A DNA stretch of 44,888 nt from Cyanobacteriota bacterium (GTDB lineage: Bacteria; Acidobacteriota; Vicinamibacteria; Vicinamibacterales; UBA2999), in NCBI GenBank assembly GCA_019752015.1, contig JAIEMQ010000047.1:1-44888 (forward strand). Direction: 5' to 3'. Positions 26,356 to 33,786 of this stretch are shown piece by piece. Every line of letters begins with the position of its first letter. Position 1 is the stretch's first letter. The notes under the pieces were generated by a model. The model ran no database searches, was not told where the DNA came from, and saw only the letters and a program-made list of their open reading frames with translations. The position numbers and the translations under genes were made by a program.

Positions 26356-26714
26356 CTATCGTCCGAGGCGATACAGCGTTGTCTCTGTTCGCAGAAAGAT
26401 CGTGTCCGGGGCGAGCGCAGGTGATGCGAAGCTCATCCCATCCACGCTGTTGTTGGACAGCTCGACGTACTTGTCGCCAGGTCGTCGGTAACTGTCGGTC
26501 GAAAATGCCGGCGCCTGCGGGGCCGAAACTGCGGCCAGGCCACAGATGGCTCGGAGCCCAACACCAGGGCCGCAGATGGCACAGACGCCAACACCAGGGC
26601 CGCAGATGGCACAGACGCCAACACCAGGGCCGCAGATGGCACAGACGCCAACACCAGGGCCACAGATGGCACAGATAGCATAGAGGAAATCAACACTAAA
26701 ACCAGACGGCGCAT
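26356..26714 (-). pseudogene. Gutted PQQ-like beta-propeller gene
   Basis: On the minus strand an ATG at 26714 starts a signal peptide (MRRLVLVLISSML), which runs into repeated ten-residue units of type SVPSAALVLA and then WPQFR, the usual first motif of secreted PQQ-like propeller proteins (WPQFRGP). There the frame shifts by one, and the sequence continues APQAPAFS, GDKYVELSNNSVDG and FASPALAPDTIFLRTETTLYRLGR to a stop at 26356. The last part matches the closing blade of the same family (ASPAxxxxxxFIRTxxxLYxIG). About 350 or more residues of propeller between the two ends are missing. It is a deletion remnant with an expanded signal peptide. Confidence 0.7.
26541..26676. repeat. 30-bp minisatellite, about 4.5 copies
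   Basis: Units start at 26541, 26571, 26601, 26631 and 26661 (partial). The three covering 26571-26660 are identical; the first differs at several positions and the last is cut short. The unit contains CAGATGGCACAGACGCCAAC. Thirty bases keep the frame, so in the broken propeller gene each unit adds ten residues to the hydrophobic leader. Confidence 0.92.
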
Positions 26715-26794: not shown

Positions 26795-26800
26795 GAAAGA

Positions 26801-26806
26801 TACAAT
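26801..26806 (+). promoter_or_regulatory. Candidate -10 of citrate synthase gene
   Basis: TACAAT at 26801-26806 is followed by 9 bases and the ATG at 26816. No Shine-Dalgarno sequence fits in that gap, so transcription would begin at or just before the start codon. The -35 region falls inside the heptamer array (26777-26783), which has no recognisable -35. Confidence 0.45.
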
Positions 26807-26815
26807 TCCCTTGAT

Positions 26816-27958
26816 ATGGCCACGGCAGCGGAAAAACCGAAGGGCGGACTCGAAGACGTCGTTGCGACGTCGTCGCGCATTTGTTTCCTCGATGGCGATC
26901 GAGGCGTGCTCGCGTATTGCGGGCACGACATCCACGATCTCGCGCGCAATGCGACGTTCGAGGAGACGTGCTATTTGCTGTGGCACGGCCGACTGCCGAA
27001 TCGCGCCGAGCTCGGCGATCTGCAATCGCAGCTGGCGGCCGCGCGGCCGTTGCCTGAGCCGATTCTCCGGCTGATGAAGATGCTGCCGCCGTCCGACGGC
27101 ATGGACGCGCTGCGCACGCTCACTTCGGCGCTCGGTCATTACGATCAGGACGCGCACGATAATTCGCTGCAGGCGTCATATCGCAAGGCGGTTCGCCTGA
27201 CGGGCCAGCTTGCCAGCATTGTCGCCACGTGGGGACGGATGCAGGAGGGCGGCGGACCAATCGCGCCCGATCCGGCAATGGGGCACGCCGCCAATTTTCT
27301 CTACATGCTGTTTGGGCGGCGTCCGAATCCGACCGAGATTCGCGCCATGGACATCGCGCTGACGCTGCACGCCGATCACGAGCTCAACGCGTCGACGTTT
27401 GCCGCGCGCGTCGCGGCGGCGACGCTCACCGACATGCATTCGGCGATCGTCGCCGGCATCGGCACGCTGAAAGGGCCGCTGCACGGCGGCGCCAACTCCG
27501 AAGTAATGAAGATGCTGATCGAGATCGGCCAGGACGCGCCGGCCGAGCGCATCGACGCGTACATCAAGGGCAAGCTGGCGCGCAAAGAGAAGATCTCCGG
27601 CTTCGGCCACCGCGTCTACAACACCGAGGATCCGCGCGCGACCCACCTGCGCAAGATGTCGAAGGAGCTCGGGCAGAAGGCGGGCAACACCAAGTGGTAC
27701 GAGATGAGCGAGCGCATCGAGGCGCTGATCAAGTCGGAGAAGAAGCTGTTTCCGAACGTCGACTTCTATTCCGCGTCGACGTATTACACGATGGGGATCG
27801 CGATCGATCTCTACACGCCGATCTTCGCGGTCAGCCGCATCAGCGGCTGGACGGCGCACGTCCTCGAGCAGCTTGCCAATAACCGCCTGATTCGCCCGCG
27901 CGCCGACTACATCGGGCCGTCGTATCCGCAGAACTGGATCCCCCTGGACCAGCGGTAA
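26816..27958 (+). CDS. gltA: Citrate synthase
   Basis: A 380-residue citrate synthase condensing oxaloacetate and acetyl-CoA at the entry of the TCA cycle. The three catalytic residues are present: His223 (GPLHGGANSEV), His265 (GFGHRVYNTEDPR) and Asp316 (FYSAS preceded by VD). The length and the N-terminus (GGLEDVVATSSRICFLDGDRGVLAYCGHDI) fit the short, dimeric citrate/2-methylcitrate synthase type without the NADH-sensing N-domain of E. coli GltA; a 2-methylcitrate synthase cannot be excluded from sequence alone, but no prpB or prpD neighbours are seen. I choose ATG 26816; the frame is open to 26756 but only through heptamer repeat. Forty-four bases separate it from the TPR gene. Confidence 0.95.
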   Translation: MATAAEKPKGGLEDVVATSSRICFLDGDRGVLAYCGHDIHDLARNATFEETCYLLWHGRLPNRAELGDLQSQLAAARPLPEPILRLMKMLPPSDGMDALRTLTSALGHYDQDAHDNSLQASYRKAVRLTGQLASIVATWGRMQEGGGPIAPDPAMGHAANFLYMLFGRRPNPTEIRAMDIALTLHADHELNASTFAARVAAATLTDMHSAIVAGIGTLKGPLHGGANSEVMKMLIEIGQDAPAERIDAYIKGKLARKEKISGFGHRVYNTEDPRATHLRKMSKELGQKAGNTKWYEMSERIEALIKSEKKLFPNVDFYSASTYYTMGIAIDLYTPIFAVSRISGWTAHVLEQLANNRLIRPRADYIGPSYPQNWIPLDQR

Positions 27959-28002: not shown

Positions 28003-29544
28003 ATGAAGATCCTGGGCCTGACAGCAGTCGTTCTTCTCGGGTTCGCGACCACGATTGGGTCGCAGGAGCTCGGCACGATCACGTTCCCGAACTCCGGAAA
28101 CGCCGCGGCGCAGGCGCCGTTCATCGAAGGCGTCAAGGATCTTCACAGCTTCCAGTTCGACGAGGCCGCGGTCGCGTTCCAGCGCGCGCAGAAAGCCGAT
28201 CCGTCGTTCGCGATGGCGTACTGGGGCGAAGCGATGAGCCACAACCATCCGTTGTGGGCGCAGCAGGATGACAAGGCCGCGAAGGCGATCCTCGAAAAGC
28301 TCGCGCCGACCTCCGATGCGCGCCAGGCGAAGGCGAAGCTGCCGACGGAGAAAGCGTTCCTGAAGGCGATCGATGTTCTCTACTACGCCCCGGGCGACGC
28401 TTCGACTTCGCTCAGCGCAAGCAAGCTCGCGCGCGACATGGCGTATTCGGACGCGCTGGCCTCGATGTACGCGCAGTGGCCGAACGATCACGAAGTGGCG
28501 ACGTGGTACGCGTTGTCGCTGCTCGGTACGGTGCGGCCCGCCGACAAGGGATTCCGCCGCCAGGCGCTGGCGGCGTCGATCGCGGAAAAAGTGTTCGCCG
28601 AAAATCCGAAGCATCCGGGCGCGGCTCACTTCATCATTCACGCCTTCGACGATCCCGATCACGCGCCGCTCGGACTGAGCGCCGCGCGTGCCTACGCCGG
28701 CATTGCGCCGGCCGCCGCGCACGCGCTGCATATGCCGTCGCACATCTTCGTGCAGCGCGGCATGTGGGAAGACGTTCGCAAGTCGAACATCGCGGCCTAC
28801 AAGTCCGCGACCGAGCTCAACGCGCGCATGAAGCTGGCCGAGGGCCGCGAAGATTTCCACACGCTCGGCTGGCTCGAATACGCGAACCTGATGCTCGGCA
28901 ACATCGACGAAGCGAAGGCCAACGTCGAATCCGCGAAGGCCGCCGCCGATCGCAATCCAGGCAACGCGGGAATCATGAACGGTTATCTCGGAATGCGCGC
29001 GCGCTTGATTCTTGAAACGGAAAAATGGGAACGCATTGCACTCGATGCACCCACCGCACCCGGCGCGCCCGACGCACACGCCGGTATGCCCGGTATGGCG
29101 ATGCCCTCGAATAACACATGGACGTTCATCGCCGGCTACAGCGCCGCGAAGCTCGGCGATCTTGCGACCGCCGAACGCGCCGTTGCGATGTTGCGCGGCG
29201 CGCGTGAAAAGGCGGAAGGCGGTTCGAATCCCTATGCGGGACGCTCGGTCGCGATTCTCGAAAAGCAGGTGGCCGCGCTCGTCAGCAATGCCCGGGGAAA
29301 CCGGGATGAAGCACTGAAGCTCGCGAAGGAAGCCATGGACATTGAGCTGGCCCTTTCGGCGCCGTCAGGACCGCCGGACCCGATCAAACCGGCCCCGGAG
29401 TTCTACGGCGAGCTGCTGATCGAGGCCGGAAAACACGCGGAAGCCGTTGCGGCGCTTGAACTTTCGCTGCAGCGAACCCCCAACCGCACGCCTTCCGTCA
29501 AAGCTATGCAGCGGGCCCGCGCGTCGGGCACGGCAATGCGATAA
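28003..29544 (+). CDS. Exported TPR-repeat protein
   Basis: A 513-residue protein with a signal peptide (1-20, ending IGSQE) and several tetratricopeptide-like helix pairs: FIEGVKDLHSFQFDEAAVAFQRAQKADPSFAMAYWGEAMSHNH, a conserved AAHFIIHAFDDPDHAPLGLSAARAYAGIAPAAAHALHMPSHIFVQRGMWEDV block and C-terminal YGELLIEAGKHAEAVAALELSLQRTPNR. The HALHMPSHIF block is typical of a widespread group of periplasmic TPR proteins in soil bacteria whose function is unknown; its histidines could bind a metal. A short Met/Pro/Ala-rich loop (HAGMPGMAMPSNN, about 360) stands between repeats. It is followed after 51 bases by the copper monooxygenase gene on the same strand and may be part of one export or uptake pathway. 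Confidence 0.8.
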   Translation: MKILGLTAVVLLGFATTIGSQELGTITFPNSGNAAAQAPFIEGVKDLHSFQFDEAAVAFQRAQKADPSFAMAYWGEAMSHNHPLWAQQDDKAAKAILEKLAPTSDARQAKAKLPTEKAFLKAIDVLYYAPGDASTSLSASKLARDMAYSDALASMYAQWPNDHEVATWYALSLLGTVRPADKGFRRQALAASIAEKVFAENPKHPGAAHFIIHAFDDPDHAPLGLSAARAYAGIAPAAAHALHMPSHIFVQRGMWEDVRKSNIAAYKSATELNARMKLAEGREDFHTLGWLEYANLMLGNIDEAKANVESAKAAADRNPGNAGIMNGYLGMRARLILETEKWERIALDAPTAPGAPDAHAGMPGMAMPSNNTWTFIAGYSAAKLGDLATAERAVAMLRGAREKAEGGSNPYAGRSVAILEKQVAALVSNARGNRDEALKLAKEAMDIELALSAPSGPPDPIKPAPEFYGELLIEAGKHAEAVAALELSLQRTPNRTPSVKAMQRARASGTAMR

Positions 29545-29595: not shown

Positions 29596-31014
29596 ATGAG
29601 GAAACTCGTCGTTCCGGCGCTCGTCGTTGTGAGCGCGTTGTACTTCGCCCCACACGCTGTCGCTCAACAGGCCGCCGCGCCGACGTTCAACAAGGACGTG
29701 GCGCCGATCTTTTTCGCGAACTGTACGTCGTGCCACCGGCCCGGCGATATCGCGCCGATGTCGCTGCTCACCTACAAGGACGCGCGTCCGTGGGCGAAGT
29801 CGATCGCGTCCAAGGTCGCTGATGGGACCATGCCGCCGTGGCACGCCGATCCGCAGTACGGCAAGTTCGTGGGCGCGCGCGCGCTGGGCGCCGCGAACAA
29901 GGAAACGATTGCGAAGTGGGTTGCGGCCGGCGCGCCGGAAGGCAAGGCGTCGGATTTGCCCGCGGCTCCGGTGTACACCGATGAGTGGAACATCGGCACG
30001 CCCGACGCGGTGTTGTCGATGCAGGAGGACTATCCGATTCCCGCCACCGGCGAGATTCCGTACCAGTATCTCGTCATCCCGGCGAACTTCGAGGAAGATC
30101 GCTTCATCACGGATTGGGAGATCCGGCCCGGCGACCGTCGTGCCGTGCACCACCTGCTCGTCTATTTGCTGGCGCCAAAAGAAGTGGTCGAAGCGCAGAT
30201 GAAGCGGCAGACGCAGATGGCGCTGCAGCGCATGTTCGGCGGCGCGCAGGCCAATGGCGCGCCGGCCGCATCGCGCCCGGCCCCGCCATTCGAAATGGCG
30301 TGCTGCTTCCAGATTCCCGACGGCGAAGAGGGTGGTCGTCCGCTGCCGCCCGAGCAGCGAAAGGATCCCGGTCCCAACTATCGCGCGCGCCCGCAGGGCA
30401 TGGCCCAGGGCATGGGCGGCTTCTCGCCGGGCGGATCGATTCGCCACTTCCCGGAGGGAATGGGCATGCGCATTCCGAAGGGCTATTCGCTGGTCTTCCA
30501 GATGCACTACACCACCTACGGCAAGGCGACCACCGATCGATCGAAGATCGGATTGAAGTTCGCCAGGACGACGCCGAAGACCATCCTCAACACGATGGCG
30601 CTGATCAACGCGTCGTTCGCGATTCCGCCGGGCGCGCAGAACCACATGGTCGAGAACACCATGACGTTCAATCGCGACACCGTGATCTACAGCCTGATCC
30701 CGCACACCCATGTGCGCGGCACCGGCTGGCACTATGAAGCGACGTATCCCGACGGCCGCAAGGAAGTGATCCTGTCGGTGCCGAAGTACGACTTCAACTG
30801 GCAGCATGAGTACGTGTTCACGCAGCCGTGGAAGGTGCCGGCCGGCACCACGCTGCAGGCCAAGGCGTGGTACGACAATTCGGCGGGCAACAAGTCGAAC
30901 CCGGATGCAACCAGGACGGTGACGTGGGGCGATCAGACGTGGGAGGAAATGATGTACACGAGCATCACCTTCTACATGCCGCCGCCACCCACTACGTCCG
31001 CCCAGCAGCAGTAA
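29596..31014 (+). CDS. Cytochrome c / copper type II monooxygenase-like fusion, exported
   Basis: A 472-residue periplasmic protein. Residues 1-24 are a signal peptide. A class I cytochrome c-like domain follows with one haem site, Cys43-x2-Cys46-His47 (CTSCHRPG), and MPPWHAD as possible distal region. The rest resembles the two-domain copper type II ascorbate-dependent monooxygenase (PHM/DBH) fold: His185-His186 (RAVHHLLVYL) as CuA-type ligands, His304 (MHYTTYG), His370/His372 (PHTHVRG) as CuB-type pair and Met452/453 (WEEMMYT) as the CuB thioether. The haem domain could deliver electrons in place of ascorbate. Similar fusions are frequent in Acidobacteriota and Planctomycetes, and their substrates are unknown. 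I start at ATG 29596 with AGGA upstream, not at TTG 29590. The tannase-family gene begins 2 bases after the stop. Confidence 0.85.
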   Translation: MRKLVVPALVVVSALYFAPHAVAQQAAAPTFNKDVAPIFFANCTSCHRPGDIAPMSLLTYKDARPWAKSIASKVADGTMPPWHADPQYGKFVGARALGAANKETIAKWVAAGAPEGKASDLPAAPVYTDEWNIGTPDAVLSMQEDYPIPATGEIPYQYLVIPANFEEDRFITDWEIRPGDRRAVHHLLVYLLAPKEVVEAQMKRQTQMALQRMFGGAQANGAPAASRPAPPFEMACCFQIPDGEEGGRPLPPEQRKDPGPNYRARPQGMAQGMGGFSPGGSIRHFPEGMGMRIPKGYSLVFQMHYTTYGKATTDRSKIGLKFARTTPKTILNTMALINASFAIPPGAQNHMVENTMTFNRDTVIYSLIPHTHVRGTGWHYEATYPDGRKEVILSVPKYDFNWQHEYVFTQPWKVPAGTTLQAKAWYDNSAGNKSNPDATRTVTWGDQTWEEMMYTSITFYMPPPPTTSAQQQ

Positions 31015-31015
31015 A

Positions 31016-32566
31016 GTGGGCGCGGTACTCGCGTTAATGATCGCCGGGCAGGCCGCTATTGGCTTGCCCGCCGGAGCCCCGGCGCGGGTTGGTCAGCCCG
31101 CGTCGTCTCCCGCCGAATGCGCGTCGCTCAAAGCGCTGCAACTCCCGGACATCAGAATTACTGAAGCCGTCGCGGTGCCTGCGAACCAGCCGGCGCCGGT
31201 GCCGCCGTCGCCGCTTGCGCCGGCGCCGACCATCACCGTCCCGTACTGCAAAGTGAACGGCACCGTCGGCCGCGAGATCCGTTTCACGCTGCTCTTACCG
31301 GATCAGTGGAACCGCAAGTTCATGATGGGCGGCGGCGGAGGGTTCGTCGAAGGCATCGACAATCAATCGATCACGTCGGTGAATCTCGGCTACGCGACCG
31401 CCGGCACCGACACCGGTCACCAGGGCCGCGGCGTCGAGGCCATGTGGGCGCTCGACAACATCGAGCGGCAGTTGAATTTCGGCCATGTCGCGATCCATCG
31501 CGTCGCCGAAGCGTCGAAGGCGATCATTCGCGCGCGCTACACCGCGGCGCCGTCACGCTCGTACTTCAACGGCTGCTCGAACGGCGGCCGCCAGGCGCTG
31601 ATGGAAGCGCAGCGCTATCCCGACGACTTCGACGGCATTGTCGCCGGCGCCCCGGCGTATGACTTCACCGGCCTGGCCGCGCAGTTCATCCAGGACATCC
31701 AGGCGGCGTTCCCCGACAAGGAGAGCCTGTCGAAGCCGCTCTTCCCGAACGACACGCTGAAGAGCATCGAGACGCAGATCGTGGCGAAGTGCGACGCGAT
31801 TGACGGCGTCACCGACGGGTTGATGGAAGACCCGCGCAGTTGCACGATCGATGTGCCGGCGTTGACGGGCCTGAGCGATCCGCAGAAGAAAGCGCTCGCC
31901 ACGATTTACGGTGAAAAGAAACTGCCGGACGGCACCGTCATCTATTCGGCGCAGCCCGTCGGCGGCGAAGGCGATGCGGCGCTCGGCTGGCCGCTGTGGA
32001 TCAACGGCGTCACGCCAATGCTGCAGCTGGCTTACCGTGTTCCGAGCCTGCGATTTGGATTCGGCACGCAGTTCATGAAGTTCTTCGTCTTCAACAATCC
32101 GGAATGGGATTACTTGAAATACGACTTCGCGAACTATCGCCGCGATTCAAGGCTCGCCGGCTCGATGCTGAACGCCACGGACACCAACCTCGATGCGTTC
32201 AAGAAGCGCGGCGGCAAGCTGGTGCTGTATCACGGCTGGTCGGATGCCGCGCTGAGCGCGTTGGCAACGACGAAGTATTACGACGAGGTCAAGGCCCGCG
32301 ATGCGTCGGCCGCTGAGTTCACGCGGTTGTTCATGCTGCCGGGCGTGGCGCATTGTGGCGGCGGCGCGGGGCCCGATCGCGTCGATTGGTATTCGGTGAT
32401 CGACAACTGGGTCGACAAGGGCGCCGCGCCCGAGCGCATTGTCGCGACCAAGCTGGCGGCGGGGAAGGTCGCGCGCAGCCGTCCGTTGTGCGCGTATCCG
32501 GCGAAGGCGGTTTACAAGGGCACCGGCTCGATCGACGACGAAGCGAGTTTTACGTGCTCGAAATGA
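31016..32566 (+). CDS. Tannase / feruloyl esterase family protein, exported
   Basis: A 516-residue alpha/beta-hydrolase of the tannase and feruloyl esterase family, which split ester bonds of plant phenolics. The family's CS-D-HC arrangement is complete: Cys187-Ser188 (FNGCSNGGRQ), Asp410 (YHGWSDAALS) and His446-Cys447 (GVAHCGGG), where the two cysteines are known to form a disulphide joining nucleophile and His loops. Residues 1-20 form a signal peptide. The GTG at 31016 comes one base after the stop of the copper monooxygenase, so both are made from one message; a shared role in breakdown of lignin-like or tannin esters is plausible, but inferred. Ends 10 bases before a palindromic element that separates it from the convergent amidohydrolase. 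Confidence 0.92.
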   Translation: MGAVLALMIAGQAAIGLPAGAPARVGQPASSPAECASLKALQLPDIRITEAVAVPANQPAPVPPSPLAPAPTITVPYCKVNGTVGREIRFTLLLPDQWNRKFMMGGGGGFVEGIDNQSITSVNLGYATAGTDTGHQGRGVEAMWALDNIERQLNFGHVAIHRVAEASKAIIRARYTAAPSRSYFNGCSNGGRQALMEAQRYPDDFDGIVAGAPAYDFTGLAAQFIQDIQAAFPDKESLSKPLFPNDTLKSIETQIVAKCDAIDGVTDGLMEDPRSCTIDVPALTGLSDPQKKALATIYGEKKLPDGTVIYSAQPVGGEGDAALGWPLWINGVTPMLQLAYRVPSLRFGFGTQFMKFFVFNNPEWDYLKYDFANYRRDSRLAGSMLNATDTNLDAFKKRGGKLVLYHGWSDAALSALATTKYYDEVKARDASAAEFTRLFMLPGVAHCGGGAGPDRVDWYSVIDNWVDKGAAPERIVATKLAAGKVARSRPLCAYPAKAVYKGTGSIDDEASFTCSK

Positions 32567-32595: not shown

Positions 32596-33786
32596 TTACT
32601 GCGGCCACCCGGTCGTTGGCATCCCCTTGAAGATTCGAACGGCGTTCTTGTAATAGACCTTCTTCAACACTTCGTCCGGCAGGTTCATTCCGTACATCTT
32701 CCAGAACGCGTGGTAGTCGCGGTAGTAGTCGAAGTACTCGTCCGCGGTCTCGAACACGCGCCAGTAATACGGGAACTCTTCGGGCTGATACGAATCCTTC
32801 CCGAACAGGATGCGGTCCTGATACTTCACGAAGAAGTCGTGCGCGGCGCGCGGCTGGCGGCCGAAGTCGTACAACACCGCGCCGGCTTCGACCGTGACGT
32901 TCGGGAACTCATCGAGCAGCTTGCCGAGGCGCTGCAGATCGTTGGCGTGCCATCCGAAATGCGCGAGCACGAATCGCGTCTTCGGGTGCTTGCGGATCAT
33001 GTTGTTGCGCTCGATCATCAGCTGCTCGAACGTCACCTGGCCGGGCTGATTGTTGCGGCGATCCGCGAACAGCGACAGCTCCAGCCACCGCTCGTTCTTC
33101 ATGTCCTGCGGCTGGAAGAACTCCTGGGGCTCCGCGGTGTGGATGAACGCGGGCACGTCGAGCTTCGCGAACTCATCCCACACCGGATCGATGTCCGGAT
33201 CGTCGACCTTCAGTCGCGAGCCATCGGGCTTGGTGATGCGCAGCCCAAACTGCTTGCCGACTTCGCCAACGCCGAGCGCGCCGGCCTTGATGTCGGCGCG
33301 CAGCTGTTGAATCGCGCGATCGGACCAGCCCGGACCGACGTTGCTGAAGTTGATGCCCGCGAGCACGCGGAAGCGATCCTTGTACGGCGACGCGTTGATC
33401 GCGGCGACGGTCTGCACCAGGCGATCGCCGCTGATGTTGTCGGCGAGCGTCAGCACTCGCAGGTTCAGCGGATCCATCGTCTCGACGAGGCGCTTCATCG
33501 AGTCCTGCGTCAGCATGCCCTGGTGGCTGTGAATGTCGATGACCGGGAACTTCGCCTTCGGCACTTTGTGCTCGACGGTGACGAGCGTGCTCCTCGGCCG
33601 GTAATCGACAATGCTCGGCGGCGGCGTTGACGGCGCCTGGCAGCTGCCGGGGCGGGTTTCGGTAGTGCCCGGCGGGCACTCCTGCCCGGCGCCGATCCGC
33701 GTGCCTCCGCCGCCGCGCTGCGCGGCGAGACCGGCGCCGACCAGGCCGCTGAAAATGATGATGAAGGCGGTGCGAGAAAGATGCAT
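32596..33786 (-). CDS. Amidohydrolase-2 family protein, exported
   Basis: A 396-residue TIM-barrel metal-dependent hydrolase or decarboxylase of the amidohydrolase-2 group. After a signal peptide (ending GLAAQ) and a Gly/Pro/Thr-rich linker with two Cys, the barrel shows IDIHSHQG (metal-binding HxH), FIHTAEP, FVLAHFGWH and LFGKDSYQ (catalytic Asp). Relatives include aminocarboxymuconate-semialdehyde decarboxylase-like enzymes and lactonases acting on aromatic breakdown products; the periplasmic location is unusual but common in Acidobacteriota. The substrate is unknown. Start ATG 33786; the gene upstream on the same strand ends 21 bases before, so they are probably one transcript. Convergent to the tannase-family gene. 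Confidence 0.87.
   Translation of the reverse strand: MHLSRTAFIIIFSGLVGAGLAAQRGGGGTRIGAGQECPPGTTETRPGSCQAPSTPPPSIVDYRPRSTLVTVEHKVPKAKFPVIDIHSHQGMLTQDSMKRLVETMDPLNLRVLTLADNISGDRLVQTVAAINASPYKDRFRVLAGINFSNVGPGWSDRAIQQLRADIKAGALGVGEVGKQFGLRITKPDGSRLKVDDPDIDPVWDEFAKLDVPAFIHTAEPQEFFQPQDMKNERWLELSLFADRRNNQPGQVTFEQLMIERNNMIRKHPKTRFVLAHFGWHANDLQRLGKLLDEFPNVTVEAGAVLYDFGRQPRAAHDFFVKYQDRILFGKDSYQPEEFPYYWRVFETADEYFDYYRDYHAFWKMYGMNLPDEVLKKVYYKNAVRIFKGMPTTGWPQ

Follow-up and report, generated by a model that had tools for sequence, protein, structure and literature searches.

PHM and dopamine beta-hydroxylase (DBH) are known mostly from animals and depend on ascorbate. A haem domain that acts as extracellular one-electron donor to a copper oxygenase is known from another system, cellobiose dehydrogenase with LPMO. 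Here, a gene is described in which a c-haem domain and a PHM/DBH-like copper monooxygenase are joined in one chain (29,596..31,014, plus strand, ATG to TAA, 472 residues). It lies in a 44,888-nucleotide stretch (the window, meaning all the DNA analysed) of contig JAIEMQ010000047.1, assembly GCA_019752015.1, whose source is recorded as a Cyanobacteriota bacterium and placed by GTDB in the Vicinamibacterales (Acidobacteriota), and it was recognised from its open reading frame (ORF), Pfam, profile searches, a structure model and a fold search. We put at roughly 65% the probability that its product, the fusion, is an extracytoplasmic copper monooxygenase with the PHM/DBH fold that receives its electrons in cis from its own c-haem and is independent of the tannase-family gene lying next to it.

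With PHM (1OPM, 6ALA), the fusion shares the two-domain fold, aligned by VIA-align over fusion residues 135-464 (Z 21.4 and root-mean-square deviation, rmsd, 2.6 over 251 residues for 6ALA), as well as five His and a presumed Met ligand in the order of the PHM ligands, whereas it differs in being bacterial, in its N-terminal c-haem domain, in an identity of 18% in the fold alignment and in having no known peptide substrate. DBH (4ZEL) is the best fold match (Z 22.2 and rmsd 2.9 over 268 residues) and also the best PDB chain by profile (9.5e-8), and a domain, DOMON, precedes its catalytic core too; in the fusion, however, the c-haem domain stands in the place of DOMON, and no amine substrate is known. 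In cellobiose dehydrogenase and LPMO, by contrast, the haem is a b-haem, the two parts are separate proteins and the copper fold is unrelated. The same c-haem and copper core is found in redoxin-fused relatives in Planctomycetota records (L044, L061 and L073, where L numbers denote loci) and in TPR-tailed forms of the host genome (L155 and L165), but their AhpC/TSA-redoxin or TPR modules are absent from the window protein.

The copper and haem parts of the fusion

Relatives were collected in a scan of genome contigs, in which 297 stretches encoding related proteins were found; the best 80 of the 297 were kept, giving 78 loci, and the relatives' ORFs were compared as 123 rows, two host genes being counted twice. 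A narrower alignment (A1) comprises the window protein and 79 rows chosen out of the 123, with long, partial, duplicate and copper-less rows excluded.

The N-terminus of the fusion resembles a signal peptide when judged by eye (MRKLVVPALVVVSALYFAPHAVA), and on this reading of the sequence the 472-residue protein is probably exported. Judged by its motifs, the haem part is clear, consisting of an N-terminal CxxCH and a downstream Met. The haem attachment motif, CTSCH (residues 43-47, 29,722..29,736, on the plus strand like all residues of the fusion given here), is present as CxxCH in 122 of the 123 rows, the remaining row being without that stretch, and M79 of MPPW (29,830..29,832), the likely axial haem ligand, is in no row of the 123 among the lost residues. 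In the copper part, H185 and H186 (30,148..30,153) correspond to HH at CuH, the third CuH ligand is H304 in QMHY (30,505..30,507), the CuM ligands are H370 and H372 in HTH (30,703..30,711), and M452 in EEM (30,949..30,951) is the presumed Met ligand of CuM. When the A1 family profile was compared with PDB chains, the human DBH match aligned these histidines with its own HH, HY and HTH (an HxH pattern). The ten positions (C43, C46, H47, M79, H185, H186, H304, H370, H372 and M452) were confirmed by script. The haem c domain fused to a PHM/DBH-like domain with five His and the Met, as described in a first-pass annotation of this DNA, is thus borne out, since CTSCH, M79 and all six copper ligands are present.

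The observation of a fusion is regarded as more than chance because the Pfam model Cu2_monoox_C scores above its curated cut-off (25 bits against 23), because the family profile matches DBH and because 110 of the 123 rows keep all ten residues together. Other searches are weaker points: Cytochrome_CBB3 stays below its cut-off in the window protein (19.5 bits against 27), the Pfam model of the N-terminal copper domain gave no match to it, a PDB search with the single fusion sequence found no chain up to E = 1, and no family matching the fusion was found in NCBIfam and PHROGs. Among the 80 members of A1, at E <= 0.01, Cytochrome_CBB3 was matched in 66 and Cu2_monoox_C in 45, and the N-terminal copper model was matched in 2.

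An AlphaFold model of the fusion (pLDDT 90.6, pTM 0.86) was compared with solved structures. In Foldseek, the 31 best rows were all PHM/DBH entries, starting from 2.4e-13 (PHM), and the best unrelated row in VIA-align reached a Z of 8.7, far from the values for DBH and PHM given above. In the model, the copper part has the two-domain jelly-roll fold of PHM/DBH, and through this fold match a convergence of the copper ligands is supported indirectly. The haem domain modelled alone reached a pLDDT of 85.8, and its profile touches hydrazine synthase alpha (0.0009) and the monohaem cytochrome 4rlr (0.0073) over about 25 residues around CxxCH. Its order of helix, CxxCH, helix, Met and helix would correspond to the layout of a small class I cytochrome.

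Ligand conservation among relatives

Of the 123 rows, 110 keep all ten haem and copper residues, 10 are without the copper ligands and the other 3 are partial. The invariance of the ten residues in the 80 chosen rows of A1 is partly a product of selection, and 110 of 123 is the unselected count. The 10 copper-less rows keep CxxCH, two of them being short, which implies that the haem part can serve without copper. These relatives are encoded at L016:9692-10744, L025:9031-10239, L027:9784-11055, L028:6037-7287, L031:4273-5421, L034:6242-7162, L039:10523-11746, L041:2410-3696, L049:6562-7707 and L055:6118-6939, to which a host copy, L164:4712-5920, is added; each of the ten non-host genes shares its locus with an intact copy.

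In the host genome, 33 match pieces were read as 16 fusion genes. CxxCH and MPP are kept in all 16 copies, and all copper ligands in 14, three of which have a shifted third His and NM replacing EM; of the other two, one ends before the Met in the gene call and the other is the copper-less L164. Versions carrying extra modules, which are a redoxin ahead of the core, TPR repeats after it, or PEGA and PDZ domains within a single long open frame, are found at L044:5245-7218, L061:67-2616, L073:5350-7641, L155:10634-12421, L165:4515-6521 and L006:3805-7377.

By a hand count of record titles, 57 of the 78 loci are of Acidobacteriota type and 18 of Planctomycetota type, with one each from Verrucomicrobia, Hydrogenedentota and 'Acidimicrobiia'. 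The last of these, L003, is a contig of G004 (G numbers denote genomes), a same-genus relative of the window, and is probably a mislabelled metagenome-assembled genome; more same-genus contigs are included among the 78 loci, for example L004, L005, L006, L007 and L010. Among 199 genomes sampled from the phylum, 48 matched the fusion, seven of them only weakly (E between 1e-5 and 1e-3).

The tannase neighbour and the variable slot

The gene following the fusion (31,016..32,566, plus strand, GTG to TGA, 516 residues) belongs to the tannase/feruloyl esterase family, with 349 bits for Pfam Tannase against a cut-off of 29.8. Its PDB relatives are MHETase (6QZ1, 6.2e-64) and feruloyl esterase B (6G21, 6.5e-54), which share the Tannase family with a gene that is only a neighbour of the fusion. 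The CS-D-HC catalytic motifs of the family were located in it as GCSNGG, GWSDAA and VAHCGGG. Both ORFs were found, one base apart, as the first-pass annotation had it, a spacing that presupposes the GTG as the true tannase start. This GTG is the first start codon of the frame past the preceding stop, and L003, the nearest relative, has the same GTG, with a gap of 10 bases between fusion and tannase. Judged by eye, the tannases of G001 and G002 start with an ATG of their own and carry a basic residue close to the N-terminus, whereas those of the window and G004 begin with GTG and have no such residue there. Given these differences at the start, a deletion may have brought the tannase against the fusion, and this may bear on export of the window tannase.

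The two genes occupy a variable slot that is flanked in all nine same-genus genomes by a citrate synthase gene on the left (26,795..27,958, plus strand), identified by Pfam and by the slot comparison, and on the right by an Amidohydro_2 gene (32,596..33,786, minus strand). A TPR-like gene (28,003..29,544, plus strand), for which all Pfam matches were below cut-off, is an optional occupant, present in four of the nine genomes and as a remnant in one. Fusion and tannase both occur in two genomes, the window genome G000 (TPR-like gene, fusion, tannase) and G004 (fusion, tannase). The fusion without the tannase is found in G003 and G005 (fusion) and in G006 (TPR-like gene, fusion), and the tannase without the fusion in G001 (TPR-like remnant, tannase) and G002 (TPR-like gene, tannase); neither is present in G008 (TPR-like gene) or in G007, which has none of the three. 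Thus, the fusion occupies the slot in five genomes and the tannase in four, with a Fisher test p of 1 that has little power at n = 9. The order is invariably TPR-like gene, fusion and tannase, and for this reason an ancestor with a full slot that repeatedly lost genes explains the pattern as well as repeated gain does. In a tree for which longer proteins were trimmed to their last 480 residues, the window copy and the other four copies in the slot form one group (support 100/100), and the fusions of G001 and G002, which lie at other loci, are a sister pair. Additionally, a tandem array (26,538-26,675; 30-base unit, 4.6 copies, 94% matches) was observed between a SnoaL-like gene and the citrate synthase gene.

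Beyond the genus, a tannase was found beside a fusion at only one of the 78 loci, L003 (the G004 contig), some loci ending near the fusion. The converse survey covered 30 tannase loci of relatives, one from each of 30 genomes out of the 41 that gave a match; a fusion lay within 1.5 kb of the tannase in G000, G004 and G054. The first-pass annotation had taken the one-base spacing to imply a joint function and had named, before any survey, unlinked genes in relatives as one finding that would speak against it. The genes are unlinked, being together in 2 of 9 same-genus slots and 1 of 78 loci, and their independent assortment over the nine slots runs counter to the claim. A joint function of fusion and tannase was rejected on the slot table together with the 78 loci. 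The fusion is very probably independent of the tannase, which seems to be a passing neighbour, not a working partner.

The amidohydrolase gene is convergent with the tannase gene, and its N-terminus resembles a signal peptide by eye, in agreement with the convergent exported amidohydrolase of the first-pass annotation. A partnership with it was likewise rejected: it is regarded as a border and not a partner, since it is present in nine of nine same-genus genomes whatever the slot contains. Neighbour clusters were obtained with a crude longest-ORF caller, and cluster 1, judged from coordinates to consist of antisense ORFs, was dropped; other amidohydrolase-like genes (cluster 4, one representative checked with Pfam) lie near fusions in 6 of the 78 loci, a weak recurrence.

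Proposed reaction, rival readings and a recurrent partner

In the reaction that we propose, the signal peptide would export the fusion from the cytoplasm, the cytochrome c assembly machinery would attach haem to CTSCH, and copper would occupy CuH (H185, H186 and H304) and CuM (H370, H372 and M452), as the ligands and the fold suggest. Single electrons would pass from the periplasmic cytochrome pool to the c-haem, then to CuH and on to CuM, in place of ascorbate, and O2 activated at CuM would lead to hydroxylation of a C-H bond of a small molecule or peptide. The fusion would function without the tannase, both being independent occupants of the slot between citrate synthase and amidohydrolase, although they may be co-transcribed in the two sister genomes where they lie side by side. 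In the host genome, cytochrome c assembly (PF01578) and SCO1/SenC (PF02630) were each found in two places. Reduction by the c-haem in place of ascorbate, in line with the earlier suggestion of an oxygenase fed by respiratory electrons, is a reasonable inference.

Several points weigh against this reading. That electrons flow from the haem to the copper sites is an inference, and in titles and opening lines of abstracts from the open-licence literature neither activity nor measurements of copper or haem were found for any member of the family. When the haem domain alone was compared with solved structures, Foldseek returned no entry at E <= 0.001 and the best Z was 3.2, with no cytochrome fold among them; a search with the C-terminal profile by itself gave no PHM/DBH chain. 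The equivalence of M452 with M314 of PHM, the CuM Met ligand of that enzyme, is indirect and holds within one residue, as it comes from the end points of the fold alignment, where model residue 464 corresponds to PHM 326 or 327, so that M314 falls at model 451-452, which fits M452. CxxCH without copper ligands is kept in the 10 rows of 123 described above. As for the tannase, its adjacency is kept in two genomes, and there are two looser co-locations that mildly favour the first-pass annotation, namely, in G054, a divergent fusion (31%) and a tannase about 1.3 kb apart on one strand and, in G002, another divergent fusion and another tannase about 4.9 kb apart, also on one strand; these leave room for a weak local link.

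An alternative, though an unlikely one, is that the protein is no oxygenase: the PHM-fold part would bind copper for electron transfer or copper handling, and the fusion would be a periplasmic redox carrier. The large number of copies per genome (16 in the host), the haem motif retained in copper-less relatives and the lack of a characterised member among those found are consistent with such a role. However, 110 of the 123 rows retain the ligands of both CuH and CuM, with the presumed Met among them, and two separate sites in PHM geometry would be superfluous for a carrier. Improbable as well is a monooxygenase whose haem domain serves for docking or sensing, or takes electrons from copper, with another small molecule reducing the enzyme. 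The fusion of redoxin and TPR modules to the same core in relatives would suit it, as would the lack of a solved relative of the haem domain by fold, but C43, C46, H47 and M79 are kept at least as well as the copper ligands. Finally, the idea that both proteins cooperate outside the cytoplasm on aromatic esters, the esterase releasing a phenolic and the monooxygenase hydroxylating it, is highly improbable and already largely refuted, since the gaps of one base in the window and 10 bases in the sister genome, a tannase that is a good member of its family and whose nearest solved relatives are MHETase and feruloyl esterases, and the looser co-locations in G054 and G002 are set against independent assortment in nine same-genus genomes (both in 2, fusion in 3, tannase in 2, neither in 2), linkage in 1 of 78 loci and a fusion near the tannase in 3 of 30 tannase loci (one of them the divergent fusion of G054); nothing in the results ties the fusion to aromatic esters.

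Another gene, distinct from the tannase, recurs beside members of the family. It encodes an exported protein of about 250-340 residues with a signature like EGW..DG..GY.NRN..P.GP.N..D.GQPTHF and adjoins 8 of the 16 host copies (L155:6135-7004, L155:18442-19320, L156:5939-6694, L159:3703-4596, L160:6022-7038, L161:3561-4415, L162:3008-4000 and L163:3587-4534), seven on the strand of the fusion and one, at L156, divergent; the window copy is not among the eight, and the partner gene is absent from the window. Two members scanned against Pfam gave no match. A profile (A2), built from genes selected for lying beside fusions, found the partner in 24 of 40 relatives, some weakly. In 30 partner loci (the best per genome and the second best in six, A2 members included), our own scan recovered a partner match in 29, one locus giving nothing; a fusion adjoins the partner on the same strand in 24 of the 30, these being precisely the loci that score above 150 bits, and the five partner loci without a fusion hold weak matches of 24-89 bits. 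The partner occurs in only 1 of the 78 fusion loci (L048). A dedicated pair of fusion and partner therefore exists in the family, though not at the window locus. A PQQ-type dehydrogenase (cluster 2; one representative, checked with Pfam, has PQQ and cytochrome domains) was observed in 9 of the 78 loci, from genomes that are not independent; it is on the same strand and at most 2 kb away in seven, being adjacent in L020, L024, L033 and L080 and within 2 kb in L032, L036 and L048.

Sequence databases name such proteins after their copper domain, so the architecture is visible to anyone. In the parts of the open-licence literature that were seen, no description of the haem c-PHM fusion, its expansion or its partner was found, a weak absence. 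The fold and the active site are already known; the haem c fusion, the expansion and the partner apparently are undescribed. More broadly, and tentatively, it is possible that a large bacterial PHM/DBH-type family (16 copies here; Acidobacteriota and Planctomycetota) draws respiratory electrons through an in-chain haem c, with ascorbate unneeded, and that many of its members have a dedicated exported partner. As fusion and tannase illustrate, genes only one base apart can be no more than passing neighbours. If the proposed reading is true, a haem-fused bacterial branch with intact ligands, many copies in each genome and a recurrent partner gene would show PHM/DBH chemistry running without ascorbate, and the family would supply self-contained copper oxygenases.

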